Positions 38,086 to 50,876 of a stretch of DNA of 64,000 nt are shown piece after piece; the first letter of the stretch is position 1; every line of letters starts with the position of its first letter. The position numbers and the translations under genes are program-made. Origin of the DNA: an uncultured Alphaproteobacteria bacterium (GTDB lineage Bacteria > Pseudomonadota > Alphaproteobacteria > RF32 > CAG-239); assembly GCA_944392275.1 (NCBI GenBank), contig CALXWA010000001.1, positions 192,737 through 256,736 on the forward strand, in the 5' to 3' direction. Below the pieces are notes generated by a model, which was not told where the DNA came from, did no database searches, and worked only from the letters and a program-made list of their open reading frames with translations.

Positions 38086-39048
38086 ATGCAGATATTAGAT
38101 TTTAACAGTAAAGTTTTTTTAGCACCGATGGCCGGCATAACGGATAAACCGATGCGGCAGATTGTTTCTTCTTTAGGTCCGGGGATTATGGTATCGGAAA
38201 TGGTCGCCATTAATGCGTTGTCACGTAAAAATGCAAAAACCTATAAAATAGCCGATGTCCGGGATGAAGCTTATCCCGTTGTGGTGCAGCTTGTCGGGGG
38301 CGATGCCGAATTGTTTGCCGATTCTGCCATATTTGCGGAGGAATTAGGTGCTCATTCAATTGATATCAATATGGGCTGTCCGGTTAAAAAAATAGTCGGT
38401 AACCATTCCGGCTCATATTTAATGAAAGATATGTCTTTAGCCTCGGCTATCATTCGCCAAGTGGTAAAAGCCACCACGTTGAAAGTAAGCGTAAAATTTC
38501 GTAAAGGATGGGACCATAATTCGGTCAATGCGGTAGAGTTTGCCAAAATGTGTGAAGACTGCGGAGCCTCTTATATAACAATACATGGTCGTACCAGGTC
38601 GGATTTTTATTCTGGAAAAGCGGATTGGGATATTATTGCCGAGGTAAAAAACGCCGTAAAAATACCGGTTATCGGCAACGGCGATGTGACCGATGTTCTC
38701 AAAGCCAAAGAAATGTTAGATTATACAAAAGCCGACGGCGTTATGGTTGCCAGAGCCGCATTGGGAAACCCGTGGATAATCTCAGACATTCATCACTATC
38801 TGGAAGAGGGAGTTATTCCGCAACAAAAGTCTTTGCTTGAGGTAAAAGAGATTATGCAAAAGCATATTATCTCTTTGGTCGAATATTATGGTGAAAAAAC
38901 AGCTCTGGGGTTATCAAGAAAATACGTTTGTTGGTATTGCAAAAACTTACGAGATGCACGAAAATTCAGAGAAAATTATATGAAAATTAATAATTGGAAT
39001 GATGCAATGGCGGAAATTGAGCATTATTTTACAAGTCTGGAGGCATAA
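38086..39048 (+). CDS. dusB: tRNA-dihydrouridine synthase B
   Basis: A 320-aa FMN-dependent TIM barrel reducing uridine to dihydrouridine in the tRNA D-loop. Conserved pieces are FLAPMAGITDKPMRQI, IDINMGCPVKKIV (with the catalytic Cys), KVSVKFRKGWD, ITIHGRTRSDFYSGKADW and GNGDVTD. In Alphaproteobacteria dusB (nifR3) usually heads the ntrBC-ntrYX-trkA-hfq-hflX cluster. Here trkA follows with no gap, so the four ntr genes are absent. Confidence 0.96.
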   Translation: MQILDFNSKVFLAPMAGITDKPMRQIVSSLGPGIMVSEMVAINALSRKNAKTYKIADVRDEAYPVVVQLVGGDAELFADSAIFAEELGAHSIDINMGCPVKKIVGNHSGSYLMKDMSLASAIIRQVVKATTLKVSVKFRKGWDHNSVNAVEFAKMCEDCGASYITIHGRTRSDFYSGKADWDIIAEVKNAVKIPVIGNGDVTDVLKAKEMLDYTKADGVMVARAALGNPWIISDIHHYLEEGVIPQQKSLLEVKEIMQKHIISLVEYYGEKTALGLSRKYVCWYCKNLRDARKFRENYMKINNWNDAMAEIEHYFTSLEA

Positions 39049-40407
39049 ATGAAAATTATTGTTTGTGGCGGAGGAAGTGTCGGAAAAAGTATTGTCAGCT
39101 ACCTGGTCAAGGGAAACAATGACATTACGGTAATTGACAACAATCAAAGAAATCTGGACGATATTTCTCAAGAATACGATGTTTTGCCGATATTGGGAGA
39201 GGCATCGCATCCTGATATTTTGGAAAAAGCCGATGCCGAACATACCGACCTCATTTTAGCCGTTACGGATTGCGATGAGGTAAATATGGTTATCTGCCAA
39301 ATAGCCCAATCGATATATGAAATTCCGCACAAAATAGCTCGTATCGACAGTGAAGAATTTTTAGATCCTTTATGGGGATTTTTATACAATGAAAAACATA
39401 TTCCGATAGATTTGATCATCTCTCCCAATATAGAAATTGCCAACGCTGTAATATCAATACTAAAATATCCGGGGTGTAGCGGAGCTCTTCCGGTTTTTAA
39501 TGGAAAATCTTGTATTTTAAGCTTAAAATTGCATGAAAATTGTCCGCTTTTAAATATTCCTCTTATGCAACTCGCACGCATAGACAATGACTTAGACATA
39601 AGCTTTGTAAATGTGAGCCGGGGAACGGAATGTTTCATTCCCGAAGTGTATGATACCTTAGAAAAAGGGGATGAAATCAACATTTTGGTAAAAAAAGAAG
39701 ATATCGAAAATGTAATTCGTTCCTTCAAGTTAGAAAAACCGGCCAATGAAAGAGTCGTAATTTTTGGCGGAAATCATATCTCTTTGTTCTTGGGCCAAAA
39801 ATTTGAAAATGACGATAGCATTGTGAGTTGCAAAATTGTGGAAGAAAATATTGACGCAGCCCGTAAACTGGCCCTAGAACTGCACCATGCCGTTGTTATC
39901 CAAGGGCCAATGATGAGCGACATCATCTTAAAAGAGGCCGGAATAAGTCATACAGATGCCAGCATTGCCGTTACATCTAATGATAAAGATAATCTGTTAG
40001 CCTCTATGTTGGCATCACAAAGCGGGGTTAGTTCAACCGTTGCGGTGGTAAATACGCCATCATACAATAACTTAATTGCCAATATTGGGGATAACATATT
40101 AATTGATCGAAGCTCGGTTATTATCTCCAAAATCTTAAAAGAAATTCGCAAAACCAAAATTCATAAGGCCTATTCGCTCAATCGCGGGCAGGGAGAGATG
40201 TGGGAGATTGTTCTGGATGAAGAAAATCCGGCCGTCGGTAAAAAAATCGGAGAACTCGGTTTGCCAAAATTAAGTCGGGTCTTTGCCATAGAAAGACAGG
40301 AAAAAATAATTTATCCGGATCCGACAACCACCTTAGAAAACGGAGATCGGCTGTTGTTATATATGGATTCCGGTGTTATTAAACAAGTAGAAAAAATTAT
40401 TAAATAA
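39049..40407 (+). CDS. trkA: Trk system potassium transporter regulatory subunit TrkA
   Basis: A 452-aa peripheral membrane protein with two RCK units. The first Rossmann motif is [15 protein letters not shown] at the N-terminus, and the second is [16 protein letters not shown] near residue 232. Each is followed by a TrkA-C-like domain. It binds NAD(H) or nucleotides and controls the TrkH/TrkG potassium channel, which is not in this window. The ATG directly follows the dusB stop codon. Confidence 0.94.
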
Positions 40408-40474
40408 ATCTTCACTAATATGTTTTAATCTACAAAATTATAAAAAGAACTGTCACAAAAAAAGGAATAAAAAA

Positions 40475-40696
40475 ATGACTCAAAATGTACAGGAAGATTT
40501 TTTAGGACGCATTCGAGACAATAAAATATCCGTAACCGTATTTTTGGTAAACGGAGTAAAGTTACAAGGCCTGATTACATGGTTTGATGATTTTTCATTG
40601 TTGTTGCGTCGTGACGGCCATACACAATTAATCTATAAACATGCCGTATCAACAATAATGCCGAGTGAAGCGGTTGATGTTGAGATAAAAGAGTAG
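40475..40696 (+). CDS. hfq: RNA chaperone Hfq
   Basis: A 73-aa Sm-like protein that pairs small RNAs with mRNAs. The family signatures are present: [22 protein letters not shown] (Sm1, split at the middle), [19 protein letters not shown] and [11 protein letters not shown] (Sm2). The C-terminal tail is short, as in other Alphaproteobacteria. It lies between trkA and hflX in the usual order. Confidence 0.97.
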
Positions 40697-40700
40697 GAAA

Positions 40701-41999
40701 TTGCCTTTTATTGAATTTAATCAAAACCAAAGAACAAAAGCCGGAGTAATATTTCCCGATGTTGCCTCTCATCCGTTGCGGGTTTCACCGCAGTCTCGCT
40801 TAGAAGAGGCAATCGGCTTGGCTTTGGCCATCAATCTAGATGTTGTCTATTCAGAAATTTTAAAAATCCGAGAGATAAAGCCGGCGGCTTTTATAGGTCA
40901 AGGTGTCATTGAGCGGATCAAAGAGGTCTGTGATAGGCAACAAATAGAGCTTTTGATTGTTGATGCAAGCTTATCACCAATACAGCAAAGGACCCTAGAA
41001 CAAAAATTAAAAATCAAAGTAATTGACCGAACCGCTTTGATTTTAGAAATCTTTGGTGAAAGGGCTCAAACAAAAGAAGGAAAATTGCAGGTAGAGCTGG
41101 CTCATTTAACCTATCAACGGAGCCGTTTGGTCCGGAGCTGGACCCATCTTGAAAGACAAAGAGGCGGTGCCGGTTTTTTGGGAGGCCCCGGAGAAACACA
41201 AATTGAACTGGATCGCCGAATTATTGATGATAAAATTTTACGAATAAAAAAAGAACTGGAAAAGGTAAAGCAAACACGCCACATTCAGCGTTCGGCTCGC
41301 AAAAGAGTCCCTTATCCGGTGGTGGCATTGGTCGGCTATACCAATGCCGGAAAATCCTCTTTGTTTAATCGTTTATCTTCTGCAGATGTTTTGGCCAAAG
41401 ATCTATTGTTTGCCACGCTAGATCCGGCAATGAAAAAAATAAAACTGCCCTCAGGACGAGAAGTAATATTATCCGATACGGTTGGTTTTATCTCGGATTT
41501 GCCACATGAGTTAATCATGGCCTTTCGAGCAACATTGGAAGAAGTTGTGTCGGCAGAGGTTGTGGTCCATGTGCGGGATATCTCTAATCCGGAAAGTAAA
41601 GAGCAAAAACAAGATGTTCTGAAAGTTCTAGAAAGTCTTGGCCTTCAAGATATTGAAAATCAGTCCCATTATATAGAACTGTTTAACAAAATTGATTTAC
41701 TAAGCCCTCAGGATAAAGAAAACGCACAAAAACAAGCCTCTAAAGGTAGAAACAGAGTCCTGGTTTCAGCCTTGACCGGAGAAGGTTGTAATAAATTTTT
41801 GCATGTTTTAGATGATATCTTAGCTCAAGAAGAACAGATTTTAAAAGTCCGCATCCCGGTAGAAGACGGAAAAATGATTGCATGGTTACACAAAAATTCC
41901 GAAATTTTATCATCCAATCAAGAAGAAAAATATATAGATTATCAAATACGTATGGATGCAAAATCGGCTGGCATGCTACAAAAAATGCTAAATAATTAA
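40701..41999 (+). CDS. hflX: GTPase HflX
   Basis: A 432-aa ribosome-associated GTPase that splits stalled ribosomes. The N-terminal domain contains SPQSRLEEAIGLALAI and GGAGFLGGPGETQIELDRR. G1 is GYTNAGKSSLFN, G3 is DTVGFISDLP and G4 is FNKIDLL. The start is a TTG only 4 bp after the hfq stop. There is no nearby in-frame ATG and homology reaches the N-terminus, so TTG is likely. The AGGA is unusually close to it. Confidence 0.94.
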   Translation: MPFIEFNQNQRTKAGVIFPDVASHPLRVSPQSRLEEAIGLALAINLDVVYSEILKIREIKPAAFIGQGVIERIKEVCDRQQIELLIVDASLSPIQQRTLEQKLKIKVIDRTALILEIFGERAQTKEGKLQVELAHLTYQRSRLVRSWTHLERQRGGAGFLGGPGETQIELDRRIIDDKILRIKKELEKVKQTRHIQRSARKRVPYPVVALVGYTNAGKSSLFNRLSSADVLAKDLLFATLDPAMKKIKLPSGREVILSDTVGFISDLPHELIMAFRATLEEVVSAEVVVHVRDISNPESKEQKQDVLKVLESLGLQDIENQSHYIELFNKIDLLSPQDKENAQKQASKGRNRVLVSALTGEGCNKFLHVLDDILAQEEQILKVRIPVEDGKMIAWLHKNSEILSSNQEEKYIDYQIRMDAKSAGMLQKMLNN

Positions 42000-42794: not shown

Positions 42795-43397
42795 GTGAGA
42801 GAATTTGATAAAAAATTAAGCTCAGACACATACTTAAAAGATATTTTTAGTCTATGCCGTGAAGATTTATTGGGAGCATACTTGTGTTCAAATATTGGGG
42901 GCAAATTTACGGCAGGCATGATTACAGAAGTTGAAGCCTATGTGGGAAGTTGTGATAAAGCCTGCCATGCCTATTTGAACAAATTAACCAAAAGAACGGC
43001 GACCATGTTTCGCTGCGGCGGATGTGCCTATGTTTATTTTGTGTACGGAATGTATAATCAGTTCAATGTGGTGCAAGGACCGGAAGGGACGGCAAATGCC
43101 GTTTTAGTAAGAAGTTTGCAACCATTGGAAGGGCTAGAGGTTATGCAACAGCGTCGCCAAACCGATAAAATTAATAATTTAACCACCGGTCCCGGTAAAT
43201 TGTGTCAGGCGTTAGGAATAACCGCCAAAGAGCATAACGGTATAAATTTAGACGGAAATACATTATGGATTTCACCTAAAACGGATAATTTTTCGATTAT
43301 TGAAAAGACAAGGATCGGAATAGATTATGCGGAAGAATATAGGGATAAACTCTGGCGTTTTTACATAAAAGGAAATTCTTTTGTCAGCAAATATTAA
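42795..43397 (+). CDS. 3-methyladenine DNA glycosylase (AAG/MPG family)
   Basis: A 200-aa base-excision repair enzyme that removes alkylated purines. Motifs of the AAG family are in order: LLGAYLCSNIGG, ITEVEAYVG with the catalytic Glu, DKACHAYLNKLTKRTATMF, YVYFVYGMYNQFNVVQG, AVLVRSLQP and TTGPGKLCQALGI. The start is a GTG at 42795 behind a good GGAGGT. It lies before the CoaD fusion gene. Confidence 0.93.
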   Translation: MREFDKKLSSDTYLKDIFSLCREDLLGAYLCSNIGGKFTAGMITEVEAYVGSCDKACHAYLNKLTKRTATMFRCGGCAYVYFVYGMYNQFNVVQGPEGTANAVLVRSLQPLEGLEVMQQRRQTDKINNLTTGPGKLCQALGITAKEHNGINLDGNTLWISPKTDNFSIIEKTRIGIDYAEEYRDKLWRFYIKGNSFVSKY

Positions 43398-43474: not shown

Positions 43475-44533
43475 ATGAAAAGAGTTTTATATCCGGGATC
43501 TTTTGATCCAATCCACCGCGGTCATATTGATATTGCCGCCAGAGTCGCTGAAAATTTTGGAACTTGCGTAATTGCCGTTGGTCAAAATGCTGACAAAAAA
43601 ACGTTATTCAGCCAAGAAAAAAGAGTAGAAATGGCCCAACAAGCCGTAAGCTACTACCAAAAACATCTTGCAAAAGACGGAGCTCCAAATATAGAAGTTG
43701 TCGGCTATGACGGCTTAACCATTGATGCCGCTGTTGCAAACGGTTGTAGTGCTATTATCCGAGGAGCCAGAAGCCTTTGGGATGTTAATGAAGAAAAACG
43801 CTTAAAGTGGATAAATAAAAAATTATTAGCAATCCGCTTTAATACTGAGATGGAGCAGATTATCTTCAAAGCATCGCCGGATTATGATTATTTATCTTCA
43901 ACCGATGTAAAAAAGTTGTGCGAAGCCGGGGAGTATATTTTGGCAATGAGCTACGTACTTCCTCCGACACATAATGAGCTGATGAAAATCTTTTTGGAAA
44001 AAGATTATCATCAAGCTTTGGGTGGTTTTTGGTGGCAGGCTTTTATCAAGCCGTTTGAGGGCAGAAGTTATCATAACCTTAGTCACATTGCCTATATGAT
44101 AAATCGTTTGGCAATCTACAAAAGACAAGGCGGAAAAATCGAAAATGAGCAAAATTTGCAACAAGCAATATTTTATCATGATTATTCCGAAAATGAAGAA
44201 GAATCTGCTTCCGCCATTCCCTATACCAATAAGGAATTGCGTAGCTTAGTTAGGGCAACCAAGCATTTGGACGGTCAAGAGAAAACACTGAGCGGAGATG
44301 AACAAATCATTCACGATTTAGACTTGTCAATCTTGTTTGATAAGGATAACTATTCGGACTATGCCAATTGTGTGAAAGACGAGTACGCCGACACTTGTTC
44401 GGAGGAAGAATATCGTCAAAAACGCCGGGAGGTCTTGGATATCTTATCTCAAACCGTGGATTACAAAATTTTTCCACCCGTTGTAAAAGAGTGGGCTATC
44501 CGCAATATGGGGAGGGAAAAAGAAAACTTATAA
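43475..44533 (+). CDS. CoaD-type nucleotidylyltransferase fused to an HD-superfamily phosphohydrolase
   Basis: A 352-aa protein. Residues 1-165 are a pantetheine-phosphate adenylyltransferase-like domain: YPGSFDPIHRGHIDIA with the HxGH-type motif (His14, His17), IIRGARS (95-100) and YLSSTDVKKL (139-148). The second half of this domain (RSLWDVNEEKRLKWINKKLL) departs from canonical CoaD. Residues about 180-345 match the small predicted metal-dependent HD phosphohydrolases (COG4339 type): YHNLSHIAYMINRL, AIFYHDYSENEEESA, ATKHLDG and IIHDLDLSIL carry candidate metal ligands His200, His204, His235, Asp236, His264 and Asp281. CoaD is normally a stand-alone enzyme of about 160 aa making dephospho-CoA. 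No stand-alone coaD is in this window. Frame and sequence are continuous, so the fusion looks real. Confidence 0.85.
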   Translation: MKRVLYPGSFDPIHRGHIDIAARVAENFGTCVIAVGQNADKKTLFSQEKRVEMAQQAVSYYQKHLAKDGAPNIEVVGYDGLTIDAAVANGCSAIIRGARSLWDVNEEKRLKWINKKLLAIRFNTEMEQIIFKASPDYDYLSSTDVKKLCEAGEYILAMSYVLPPTHNELMKIFLEKDYHQALGGFWWQAFIKPFEGRSYHNLSHIAYMINRLAIYKRQGGKIENEQNLQQAIFYHDYSENEEESASAIPYTNKELRSLVRATKHLDGQEKTLSGDEQIIHDLDLSILFDKDNYSDYANCVKDEYADTCSEEEYRQKRREVLDILSQTVDYKIFPPVVKEWAIRNMGREKENL

Positions 44534-44563
44534 AAAAAAGGCTGTGAAAACAGCCTTTTTTTT
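44534..44563 (+). terminator. Terminator of the CoaD-HD gene
   Basis: AAAAGGCTGT and ACAGCCTTTT form a 10-bp stem around GAAA, with a T run. Confidence 0.92.
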
Positions 44564-44581
44564 ATAAGTAAGGAATAGTAT

Positions 44582-47105: not shown

Positions 47106-47702
47106 ATGATTTACGCATATATTAGAATATCAACTGACTTACAACATCAGGAAAACCAAAAATTTGAAATAGAAAATTTTGCTAAAACAAATAATATCAA
47201 TATAGATAAATGGATTATGGAGACAATATCATCAAAAAAGCCATTAGAAGAAAGAAAATTAGGAAAAATATTAAAAAAATTAAAACAAGATGATATTTTA
47301 ATAACTTCCGAAATTTCAAGATTAGGTAGAAATTTATTACAAATTATGTATATACTTCATCACTGTATGAATGTTGGTTGTCAGATATGGACGATTAAAG
47401 ATAATTATAGATTGGGAACAGATATACAGTCGAAGGTATTGGCTTTTGCTTTTGGATTAAGTGCAGAAATAGAAAGAGATTTAATATCACAAAGAACTAA
47501 ACAATGTTTAGCACGATTAAAAGCTGATGGAAAACATATTGGAAGACCAATAGGAAGAAAAAATAAAATAACTAAATTATCTGGAAAAGAAGATTTAATT
47601 GATAAATTATTATCACAAAACATCAAGAAAACTAAAATCGCCAAAATGCTAAATGTAGATTATTCAACATTTTATAAATTCTTAAAACAAAAGGCGGTAT
47701 AA
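47106..47702 (+). CDS. Serine recombinase (invertase/resolvase family), Mpi-like
   Basis: A 198-aa site-specific recombinase. The catalytic serine is Ser9 in YIRISTD. Also present are TSEISRLGRNLLQIM and AFGLSAEIERDLISQRTKQCL, the dimer-interface and E-helix region. The C-terminal helix-turn-helix contains KKTKIAKMLNVDYSTFYKFL. It resembles Bacteroides Mpi-type DNA invertases. It converges with a second, different serine recombinase 8 bp away. The target site is unknown. Confidence 0.92.
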   Translation: MIYAYIRISTDLQHQENQKFEIENFAKTNNINIDKWIMETISSKKPLEERKLGKILKKLKQDDILITSEISRLGRNLLQIMYILHHCMNVGCQIWTIKDNYRLGTDIQSKVLAFAFGLSAEIERDLISQRTKQCLARLKADGKHIGRPIGRKNKITKLSGKEDLIDKLLSQNIKKTKIAKMLNVDYSTFYKFLKQKAV

Positions 47703-47709
47703 ATCCGCC

Positions 47710-48258
47710 TTATTTTTCTATATAGCTATATACAGTTGGTCTAGTAATTTCAAATTTTCTCGCAATTTCAGCAACGGCAACACCATTTTTATATAAATTA
47801 TTTAATTCTTTTACTTGTTCATCAGATAATTTATTTTTACCACCTTTATATTTTCCTTTCGCTTTTGCCAAAGCGACACCTTCTCTAACTCTATCGTTAA
47901 TCAATGAACGCTCTAAAGAACTAACAGCTGCCAGCATTGTCATCATCATTTCTTGATAAGGGTCTTTTTTATCAGGAGAGAATATTAAATTTTCTTTATG
48001 AAATTTAATTGTTGCACCTGCGTTGTTTATTTCTTCAACTATATTTAATAAATCTCTGGTATTTCTTGCAAGTCTGTCCATTGAATGAACATTTACAATA
48101 TCTCCGGCACGCAAATTTGATAATAAAGCTTCCAACTGTGGACGTTCTCTATTCTTTCCTGATAATTTATCTTCATATTCCCTATCACAATGAACATCAA
48201 TTAACTGTCTTTCGGTAGATTGGATTAAAGTTGAAACTCTTTTATAATTAAAAATCAT
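47710..48258 (-). CDS. Serine recombinase (resolvase family)
   Basis: A 182-aa resolvase/invertase. The catalytic serine is Ser9 in NYKRVST. VHSMDRLARNTRDLLNIVEE carries the catalytic Arg residues of the SxxxRxxR type, and the long E-helix is MLAAVSSLERSLINDRVREG. The C-terminal domain has EQVKELNNLYKNGVAVAEIA and FEITRPTVYSYIE, a Hin-like helix-turn-helix. Its promoter region carries four copies of a TGTAAAATC-type motif, which may be its binding or recombination site. Confidence 0.92.
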   Translation of the reverse strand: MIFNYKRVSTLIQSTERQLIDVHCDREYEDKLSGKNRERPQLEALLSNLRAGDIVNVHSMDRLARNTRDLLNIVEEINNAGATIKFHKENLIFSPDKKDPYQEMMMTMLAAVSSLERSLINDRVREGVALAKAKGKYKGGKNKLSDEQVKELNNLYKNGVAVAEIARKFEITRPTVYSYIEK

Positions 48259-48275
48259 TTTTAAAATTCCTCAAA

Positions 48276-48394
48276 TGTAAAATCAATATCTATAATATGA
48301 CTTTACAATATATAAAAAGTGTAAAATAGTCAAGCGTTTTATGTTAGATTTTACACTTTTTTATAATTAAATTTGATTATAGTTTGATTTTACA
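48276..48394. promoter_or_regulatory. Repeat-rich site upstream of the serine recombinase, res-like
   Basis: TGTAAAATC or its complement appears at 48276-48284, 48320-48328 (last base A), 48347-48355 and 48386-48394, two in each orientation. The middle pair forms a perfect 14-bp inverted repeat (48314-48327 and 48348-48361) around a 20-nt spacer. This is how a resolvase res site or operator often looks. The rest of the 304-bp gap to 48562 is AT-rich with no other signal seen. Confidence 0.6.
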
Positions 48395-48562
48395 AGTATT
48401 TGAGCCACTTCCAAACAATCAGACATAACAAAAAAATATAATAAAACTATATTATAACTATTATTTAATAATCTTTGTGTATAAGAGAAATACAATAATT
48501 GACATTAGAAATATAATATTTCCATAATTTAACATCATTAACATATATACGGAGAATAAAAA

Positions 48563-49015
48563 ATGGCTGAAAATTCTAACTCAAACAATAAAAAAACAAC
48601 ATTAAACTTTACTGGTCTTGATATGAATGTAGAAAAAGCAAATGTATTTAACGCAAAAGTTAATTCAATCAAGGCAAAAATCGCAGATAGCATTCAAAAA
48701 AATCTCAATTACGAAAACAGTATCGAAAACAAATCAGCTCCTGCATCTCAATTATCGCCATCTATGCGTATTTTGAAGGATAGCGGAGATTACACTGTAA
48801 TTACCTTACGTTGTGGTGCTTATCCAATTTTTAAGAACACAACTAAAAAAAGCGAATACACACACACTAAAATTTTATCTTCATTAAAATCAATGCTTGA
48901 TGAAGGACAATTTGATGAAGAAATAAAGGCATACGCCAAGAAAAAACGCACCAGAAAATCAAACGAAGATGAAACAGAAGAAAATTCATCTAAAAACAAA
49001 ACAAAGAAAAAATAA
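48563..49015 (+). CDS. Hypothetical protein of the mobile element, 150 aa
   Basis: A 150-aa soluble protein with an Asn/Ser/Lys-rich N-terminus, a more structured middle (LSPSMRILKDSGDYTVITLR, CGAYPIFKNTTKKSEYTHTK) and a low-complexity Lys/Glu/Asn tail. No family recognised. The ATG follows GGAGAATAAAAA. It converges with the integrase gene. Confidence 0.6.
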   Translation: MAENSNSNNKKTTLNFTGLDMNVEKANVFNAKVNSIKAKIADSIQKNLNYENSIENKSAPASQLSPSMRILKDSGDYTVITLRCGAYPIFKNTTKKSEYTHTKILSSLKSMLDEGQFDEEIKAYAKKKRTRKSNEDETEENSSKNKTKKK

Positions 49016-49027
49016 TCTATAATAATG

Positions 49028-49053
49028 GGAGAGTTAATTAACTCTCCTTTTTC
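49028..49053. terminator. Palindromic terminator between converging genes
   Basis: A perfect 20-bp palindrome (GGAGAGTTAA with its complement) is followed by TTTTTC. The integrase stop codon lies in its right arm. Confidence 0.7.
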
Positions 49054-50876
49054 TTTGTCTTCTTTTTTGATAATTCATAATCACCAGTTGAAAAATCTTT
49101 TTGAGATGGGTCATATGCAAGTTTGTGTAATATTTGTTTTAAACATGGATAATCTATTTTCTTTAACTCGCGATTAAGCAATGAAATATTGATGTTTTTA
49201 CCATAAATTGATTGCCCTATACCTTTATTAGCCCATCCACCAAGAGCATTTTGGACTTCTGTTGATATTTTTTTTGCAATAGCATGTTCTTCAAAACAAT
49301 ATCTAAAACTATGAAATACAATTTTATTTGCTGTTATACCGAGTTTATCAAGATAACGAGCAAACCAATGACCGACAGCACCTGAAAATTGATTTTTTTT
49401 GGTATATTCAATAGTGTAAAAAATCCACTCTTTTTTATTTGTTTTTAATTTTTTTACAAAATCAATGAAACCTAAAAATATAAGAGCCGGGTGTATAGGC
49501 ACAATTCTTTTAGAATGCTTGTTTTTTAATGATTGTTTGGGATGTGTGTCACAAATATTAAAACACCATATGCCTTTTACTTTGATAATATCTTCCACTC
49601 GTAATTGGCAAATCTCGTTAATCCGAGCACCTGAAAATAAGGCAATTAAAGGAACCCAGAACTTTACAAATTCATAACGGCTATATCTATTGGGATAGGT
49701 TTCTGGATTGAATATCTTTTTTAAATCTTTATCAGAAAATCCAATGCGTGCAGGATCTTTATTTAATAATGGCGTTGTAATATTTTTCTTAAAATCATTC
49801 GGTATAATGCCTTCATCAACTGCAAATTTTAATAATTCTTGAAAAGATATTAAATGAGCTTTGATTGTTTTTAGAGAGATACATTTTTCATTATCAATCG
49901 GAAGTAAAATACTATTCAATCTCTTGTTCGGATATAAAAATTGCCATCTTTTGGGCACTCTATGAATATCAATAGAAATTCTTTTGCAATCTTCTGCCGT
50001 TATATCGTCAATACAATCTTTTTCAAGAAGGGCGAAAATAGTTTTTAAATGTGTTCTTTTAGAATCTACAGAACTTTGTTTTATTTTTTTACGTAAATTA
50101 TGAACCGTTATCATTCGGTCAAATAAAGTAGTCCAAAGAGTTTTTATTTTTCGTTGTTTTTCTATTCTCTTATTAGCTATGTCTTGGCAAGTGGTTGTTA
50201 ATTTTCTGATTAGCGGATTTATATTAGCATACTTAACCGCAGTATCATCAGTATTATGAATATCATTTATCAATTTTTCATTATAACTCTCTACCTGCTG
50301 AAACTTATTTACATATGATTTAAACCAATCAGCGGTTTCCAAATTACGATATGTAGATGGAGATGTTGGGATATTGGTTAATCCACGCATAATTTTTTCT
50401 AAAACATTTTTTAATGTAATATGCGTGTCAGGTTGTTGATAGAGCCATAATAGATAAGAGTTGAGGTATTTTCCTGCACAAAATGTTATATCACCACTAG
50501 TAAAAACAGAAACCTCTCTAAAATCTGCTTTACCTTTTTCAATATTATTAAAATTATCTTCACAAAACTTTTGCACTTCTTCCAATCTATGAATTAAAAG
50601 AGCGTCAATATCAGCATCATCCATCGTAATGCCGAAAGGGTGTGTTCTCTTGCTAATTTTCAATGCAACAACCTTTAAAAAATCAATAAATTTATCCATT
50701 GCGAGGGATTCTTTGGGATATTGTTTTATCGCCGTATAATAATCCCTTGTGCCAAGAGAATAAATCAACTCTTTGCGAAGTGCAAGAGGTTGCAAAATTC
50801 TGGGGATAGCAACCCTAATATAGAATACATGAAGCCGACGAGTTAGACGGGGATATCTTGACCGATTCTGTAACAC
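49038..50876 (-). CDS. Tyrosine recombinase (phage-type integrase)
   Basis: A 612-aa site-specific recombinase that probably inserted the element into tRNA-Ser. The catalytic C-terminal domain shows GARINEICQLR with the first Arg, HSFRY with His522 and Arg525, GGW with Trp548 in place of the second His, and the nucleophile Tyr558 in SIYGKN. The N-terminal part MLQNRSRYPRLTRRLHVFYI is typical of DUF6538-type integrases. The start is a GTG at 50876; no ATG is available upstream before a stop. It is transcribed away from the tRNA and lies 84 bp from the att repeat. Confidence 0.93.
   Translation of the reverse strand: MLQNRSRYPRLTRRLHVFYIRVAIPRILQPLALRKELIYSLGTRDYYTAIKQYPKESLAMDKFIDFLKVVALKISKRTHPFGITMDDADIDALLIHRLEEVQKFCEDNFNNIEKGKADFREVSVFTSGDITFCAGKYLNSYLLWLYQQPDTHITLKNVLEKIMRGLTNIPTSPSTYRNLETADWFKSYVNKFQQVESYNEKLINDIHNTDDTAVKYANINPLIRKLTTTCQDIANKRIEKQRKIKTLWTTLFDRMITVHNLRKKIKQSSVDSKRTHLKTIFALLEKDCIDDITAEDCKRISIDIHRVPKRWQFLYPNKRLNSILLPIDNEKCISLKTIKAHLISFQELLKFAVDEGIIPNDFKKNITTPLLNKDPARIGFSDKDLKKIFNPETYPNRYSRYEFVKFWVPLIALFSGARINEICQLRVEDIIKVKGIWCFNICDTHPKQSLKNKHSKRIVPIHPALIFLGFIDFVKKLKTNKKEWIFYTIEYTKKNQFSGAVGHWFARYLDKLGITANKIVFHSFRYCFEEHAIAKKISTEVQNALGGWANKGIGQSIYGKNINISLLNRELKKIDYPCLKQILHKLAYDPSQKDFSTGDYELSKKKTKKKES

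Follow-up and report, generated by a model that had tools for sequence, protein, structure and literature searches.

The window, a stretch of 64,000 nucleotides from an uncultured Alphaproteobacteria bacterium, carries on its forward strand one intact open reading frame (43475-44533) that runs from an ATG at 43475 to the stop at 44533 and encodes 352 amino acids without internal stops. Residues 1-156 (43475-43942, + strand) form a domain recognized by the TIGR01510 model of CoaD, the phosphopantetheine adenylyltransferase (PPAT), and residues 160-352 (43952-44530, + strand) form an HD hydrolase domain, recognized through a profile over 47 relatives and a helical model. AlphaFold folds the full-length protein as two domains with high confidence (pLDDT 94.5, pTM 0.92). 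The upstream neighbor, a DNA-3-methyladenine glycosylase gene (42795-43397, + strand; TIGR00567), lies outside the system. Further upstream, the order dusB-trkA-hfq-hflX is found at 38086-41999; it precedes the fusion in three genomes of the same genus, and dusB, trkA and hflX occupy the same place in G125 and G043. In another group of relatives, ribonucleotide-reductase-like genes lie upstream of the fusion, and no further CoA gene was found in its gene context within the host family. A near-palindromic, terminator-like 20-pair stem with a T-run (44526-44569, listed on the - strand) sits at the stop codon of the fusion gene and is a possible bidirectional terminator. Downstream, 47106-48258 contains two resolvase-like frames of opposite orientation and 49038-50876 a large integrase-like frame; the region 47106-50876 is possibly a mobile element.

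The same architecture recurs as single frames of 349-436 amino acids in 56 of the 153 genomes of the order, distributed over 12 genera. Between close pairs, dN/dS (omega) is mostly 0.03-0.3 in both halves, which are thus under purifying selection. The earlier note had considered that a frameshift or an assembly error might have joined two genes. This artefact is ruled out, with practically no probability left to it, by the 56 genomes with the same single frame, the confident two-domain model and the purifying selection on both halves. Elsewhere in the class, the matches listed cover the CoaD part alone, the HD domain being encoded separately. One genome of 59% completeness (G015) has a CoaD of this type that stands alone, with no adjoining HD gene; this CoaD falls inside the fused clade in the tree, a placement that fits loss of the HD part.

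The CoaD half

Residues 4-155 score 105.8 bits against the NCBIfam coaD model TIGR01510 (cut-off 103.3), a margin that makes the label "divergent" in the earlier note a fair one, and Pfam CTP_transf_like scores 67.6 bits on the same half. The top phmmer and Foldseek matches are E. coli and other CoaD structures (6b7a, E 1.8e-20), with a TM-score of 0.92 when normalized by target length. NadD models reach at most 29 bits on the N-terminal half, far under their cut-offs. The fusion shares with TIGR01510 CoaD proteins both the fold and the active-site residues, including the HRGH, RGAR and SST motifs by which the domain had first been recognized: PGSFDPIHRGH (H17), K41, RGAR (R96, R99), E107 and SS (141/142) are all retained and are almost invariant across 41 fusions. 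From these residues and the family assignment, we infer that the CoaD half is probably active as a PPAT. It differs from TIGR01510 CoaD by the added C-terminal HD hydrolase domain and, in many fused relatives, by an insertion of tens of residues that precedes the TVD segment.

The HD half

Residues ~160-352 match no Pfam or NCBIfam model over cut-off. The histidine and aspartate ligands of an HD domain are present (YHNLSH at 199-204 with H200 and H204, H235-D236, D281/D283). The join proposed in the earlier note, in frame and to a domain with its ligands, was borne out. In an alignment of 47 diverse HD proteins, comprising stand-alone relatives from many phyla and the window protein itself, the invariant residues are R197, Y199, H200, H204, H235, D236, E241, T262, D281, D283, E303, R317 and N344, and every one of them is kept in the fused domain. 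The domain aligns with a large family of proteins of ~200 aa, predicted HD phosphohydrolases that are usually stand-alone and for which no function or curated family model was found. The label COG4339-like for this family is provisional and follows the earlier note.

Modeled alone, the HD domain is all-helical (pLDDT 92). Along its full length it superposes on class I cyclic-nucleotide phosphodiesterases with a Z of 13.8, a middling value that helical folds easily reach and that is not rare among them (189 residues aligned, 3.6 A, 12-14% identity). The YHNxxH motif resembles that of class I phosphodiesterases; Pfam PDEase_I matched none of the 47 members, yet the fold is still phosphodiesterase-like in structural alignment. 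With the HD model as query, Foldseek gave no match below E 0.001 (E-values >0.01); small alarmone hydrolases are on its list, and YqeK is absent among the structural matches listed, an absence that carries no weight. By sequence profile, the sole PDB match to the domain is the HD protein 3dto, a weak one (E 0.026). YqeK models did not match the fusion at E-values up to 1, nor did any YqeK model match the other fused and stand-alone HD members. By its predicted fold, the C-terminal half is taken as a member of the HD superfamily, and the resemblance to phosphodiesterases is not taken as an assignment of function.

Pairing of CoaD and HD genes outside the host family

A first contig scan with the whole fusion as query gave no match. 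A scan of 84,980 genomes was then made with four aligned stand-alone HD proteins as the query, and the best 80 of 350 loci were analyzed. Because the query held no CoaD sequence, adjacency between HD genes and coaD was not built into the search; of the proteins in the query, the one from G251 is encoded next to a coaD. Among these best 80 of 350 loci, 16 have a co-oriented coaD immediately upstream of the HD gene or fused to it, and chance adjacency, given genomes of thousands of genes, is roughly estimated at well below one case per 80. The domain pair first noted in the window is found in the order and, adjacent or fused, in several distant bacterial groups and in archaea. The 16 comprise eight loci in Verrucomicrobia, one each in Riflebacteria, Jorgensenbacteria and one further bacterium, three fusions and two archaea. 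The fusions belong to three further lineages, Harrisonbacteria (376 aa), Taylorbacteria (383 aa) and Phycisphaerales of the Planctomycetota (441 aa) (loci L181, L207 and L211). In the archaeal records, from Nanoarchaeota and Pacearchaeota, a bacterial-type CoaD is fused to CoaE (TIGR01510 and TIGR00152), and the HD gene comes next, overlapping or abutting the CoaD-CoaE gene (L158, 180-1319, + strand; L193, 3834-4952, + strand). In G251, a genome of the window's class that is 10% contaminated, the HD gene overlaps the coaD start in the reverse gene order (L111).

The remaining 64 of the best 80 loci have no coaD within the flanks examined; therefore, the association of the HD family with CoaD is not universal. 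This majority, the alarmone hydrolases in the Foldseek list and the cleavage of Ap4A by YqeK itself (PMC9426524) would agree with an HD domain that is regulatory or structural, or that has an unrelated nucleotide substrate, for example Ap4A or (p)ppGpp, the fusion merely ensuring co-expression. Against this, it is CoaD specifically, including CoaD-CoaE, that is repeatedly paired or fused with the HD domain, and such a role is considered improbable. Because the pairing is recurrent and fusion is repeated in distant lineages, including beside the archaeal CoaD-CoaE, the HD family can be linked to CoA synthesis, and the gene pairing suggests that the CoaD and HD halves are functionally coupled.

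Two kinds of CoaD are found. A canonical coaD and an HD-linked coaD occur together in seven Verrucomicrobia, in Riflebacteria and in G251 (the Verrucomicrobia and Riflebacteria genomes with two are G390, G391, G393-G397 and G399), and the HD-linked coaD is the only copy over cut-off in CPR genomes, archaea, Phycisphaerales and one Verrucomicrobia. In the tree, the HD-linked CoaDs cluster together, separate from the canonical ones (support 91). The host-family fusions are another fast-evolving CoaD group that may join either the HD-linked group, at a support of 74, or the CoaDs of their own class, a placement with an AU p of 0.399. In the HD tree, the fused HDs of the host family form one clade (support 98) and the coaD-linked members are scattered over several places. 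Such scatter means that the pairing or fusion of CoaD and HD has more than one origin or has been lost repeatedly.

Late CoA synthesis in the host family

The window's genome (1.56 Mb, 100% complete) contains no second coaD, the stand-alone copy that the earlier note had thought worth looking for. The CoA pathway was surveyed by profile search in 52 near-complete relatives, of which roughly one half carry the fusion. CoaE is present in 50 of the 52, CoaBC in none (14/14 control genomes) and PanK-III in none (7/14 controls); no PanK-I was found above cut-off in the 52, with one weak match. Because CoaBC and PanK are absent while CoaE is kept, the host family probably makes CoA from a late precursor that it imports. 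The route from pantothenate to CoA appears to be lost in the family, with only the last steps retained. Patterns of PPAT plus DPCK only, and of DPCK only, have been reported in mycoplasmas too (PMC8721197). For the CoaD half, the earlier suggestion of action on a different metabolite is less likely: the active site is kept, and the genome, which has coaE, contains no other coaD.

Wherever the fusion is present, it is presumed to be the PPAT, converting 4'-phosphopantetheine to dephospho-CoA. Where it is missing and CoaE alone remains, dephospho-CoA must be taken up or made by another enzyme. The absence of the fusion from many relatives that keep CoaE indicates that it is dispensable in some settings. 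No CoaD was detected in many near-complete relatives (e.g. G034, G059, G090, G102), in which CoaE is nearly always kept; G034 and G032 have neither. Weaker cytidylyltransferase matches were considered as a replacement PPAT in the coaD-less relatives and rejected, as the four examined resemble, by eye, short proteins of the glycerol-3-phosphate-cytidylyltransferase type rather than CoaD.

With PanK and CoaBC missing from the host family, 4'-phosphopantetheine must be salvaged. The HD half could then be a phosphodiesterase that frees it from holo-carrier protein, like AcpH/PptH, or from imported CoA or dephospho-CoA, the fusion being a salvage module; an HD domain sharing the activity of AcpH/PptH would supply the substrate of CoaD. 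Phosphopantetheinyl hydrolases do exist (PMC8557913). The nearness of the HD model to class I phosphodiesterases also speaks for release of 4'-phosphopantetheine, although the Z is of little rarity for helical folds, and an HD-linked coaD beside a canonical copy fits a recycling module. However, the pair also occurs in Verrucomicrobia with large genomes (5-8 Mb). No sequence relation of the HD domain to AcpH was seen with hhalign (probability 0.3%), though the HD control YfbR failed as well, so that the comparison carries no information. Although the missing PanK and CoaBC make it attractive, such a salvage enzyme is rather unlikely.

Monophosphatases occur among HD enzymes, which would also suit a damage-control phosphatase acting on oxidized or surplus 4'-phosphopantetheine, comparable to DUF89 in PANK4. 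Huang et al. 2016, as cited in PMC9426524, describe DUF89 as a family of damage-control phosphatases, and fusion of a hydrolase to a CoA enzyme has a precedent in the HAD-DPCK protein of mycoplasmas (PMC8721197). Nevertheless, without a detectable PanK in the genome to restore the phosphate, its removal from 4'-phosphopantetheine would be a waste, and this role is quite doubtful.

A candidate editing enzyme for CoA

That the fusion works in the CoA pathway is very probable. In the proposed sequence of reactions, the CoaD domain would transfer AMP from ATP to 4'-phosphopantetheine. The penultimate intermediate of the pathway, dephospho-CoA, would result, and CoaE, whose gene lies at another place in the genome, would phosphorylate it to CoA. 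The HD domain would be a metal-dependent phosphohydrolase on substrates or products of the CoaD step; in its most likely role, similar to that of YqeK, it would split dephospho-CoA analogs that are damaged or carry a wrong base into 4'-phosphopantetheine and nucleotide. A bifunctional enzyme of late CoA synthesis, with the HD half as an editing or recycling diphosphatase on the same step, is plausible and is proposed tentatively; for the HD half taken by itself, editing or recycling specifically is an assignment by analogy, held with somewhat more reserve. The purifying selection on both halves, the grouping of HD-linked CoaDs, often beside a canonical copy, and the joint change of both active sites in L027-L029 speak for this proposal. 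Against it stand the 64 HD loci of the best 80 that show no coaD, the lack of any YqeK match, the loss of an HD ligand in L003 and L052 with CoaD residues kept, and the many relatives that have CoaE but not the gene. Recurrent pairing and fusion place the pair in CoA metabolism; the earlier idea of one protein that both makes and hydrolyzes CoA or a related product is one of several readings.

Editing or recycling is favored because the genomic signature equals that of NadD-YqeK, although both the adenylyltransferase and the HD family are different. In mycoplasmas YqeK is fused to NadD, and in other genomes it is clustered with nadD; it hydrolyzes wrong-base NaAD analogs as well as Ap4A, and the proofreading activity of this pair was found via fusion and clustering with an HD hydrolase (PMC9426524). 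NadD-YqeK likewise joins an adenylyltransferase of the nucleotidylyltransferase superfamily to an HD hydrolase, but it differs from the present fusion in its pathway (NAD), in its adenylyltransferase (NadD) and in its HD domain, which is of COG1713 and not COG4339-like. Late CoA enzymes are also fused to each other in PPAT-DPCK (CoA synthase) or to a hydrolase in HAD-DPCK, neither of which couples CoaD to an HD domain. While the combination of an adenylyltransferase with an HD hydrolase is known from NadD-YqeK, the family pair and the pathway are new here; no description of a CoaD plus HD hydrolase pair was found in the literature searched, which was mostly open access. More broadly, it is possible, albeit rather uncertain, that the large HD family is a CoA editing or salvage enzyme, paired in bacteria and archaea with a distinct second CoaD lineage and fused several times independently, as the CoA counterpart of NadD-YqeK. 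This widespread HD family, lacking a curated model or a clear solved sequence relative, now has a pathway hypothesis. Editing of metabolites is known from NAD synthesis and may extend to CoA, and some bacteria and archaea may keep a dedicated CoaD for editing.

Changes at the active sites of single fusions

Several fusions have lost residues of one half. In L003 (D236N) and L052 (D236H) an HD ligand is lost and the CoaD residues are intact; in L010 and L043 CoaD residues are lost and the HD domain is intact. In L027, L028 and L029 (genomes G130, G043 and G134), both HD ligands and the CoaD residue K41 are changed, and these substitutions indicate that the CoaD and HD active sites decayed within one clade. 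The decayed fused protein of L027-L029 is retained as a full-length open reading frame.
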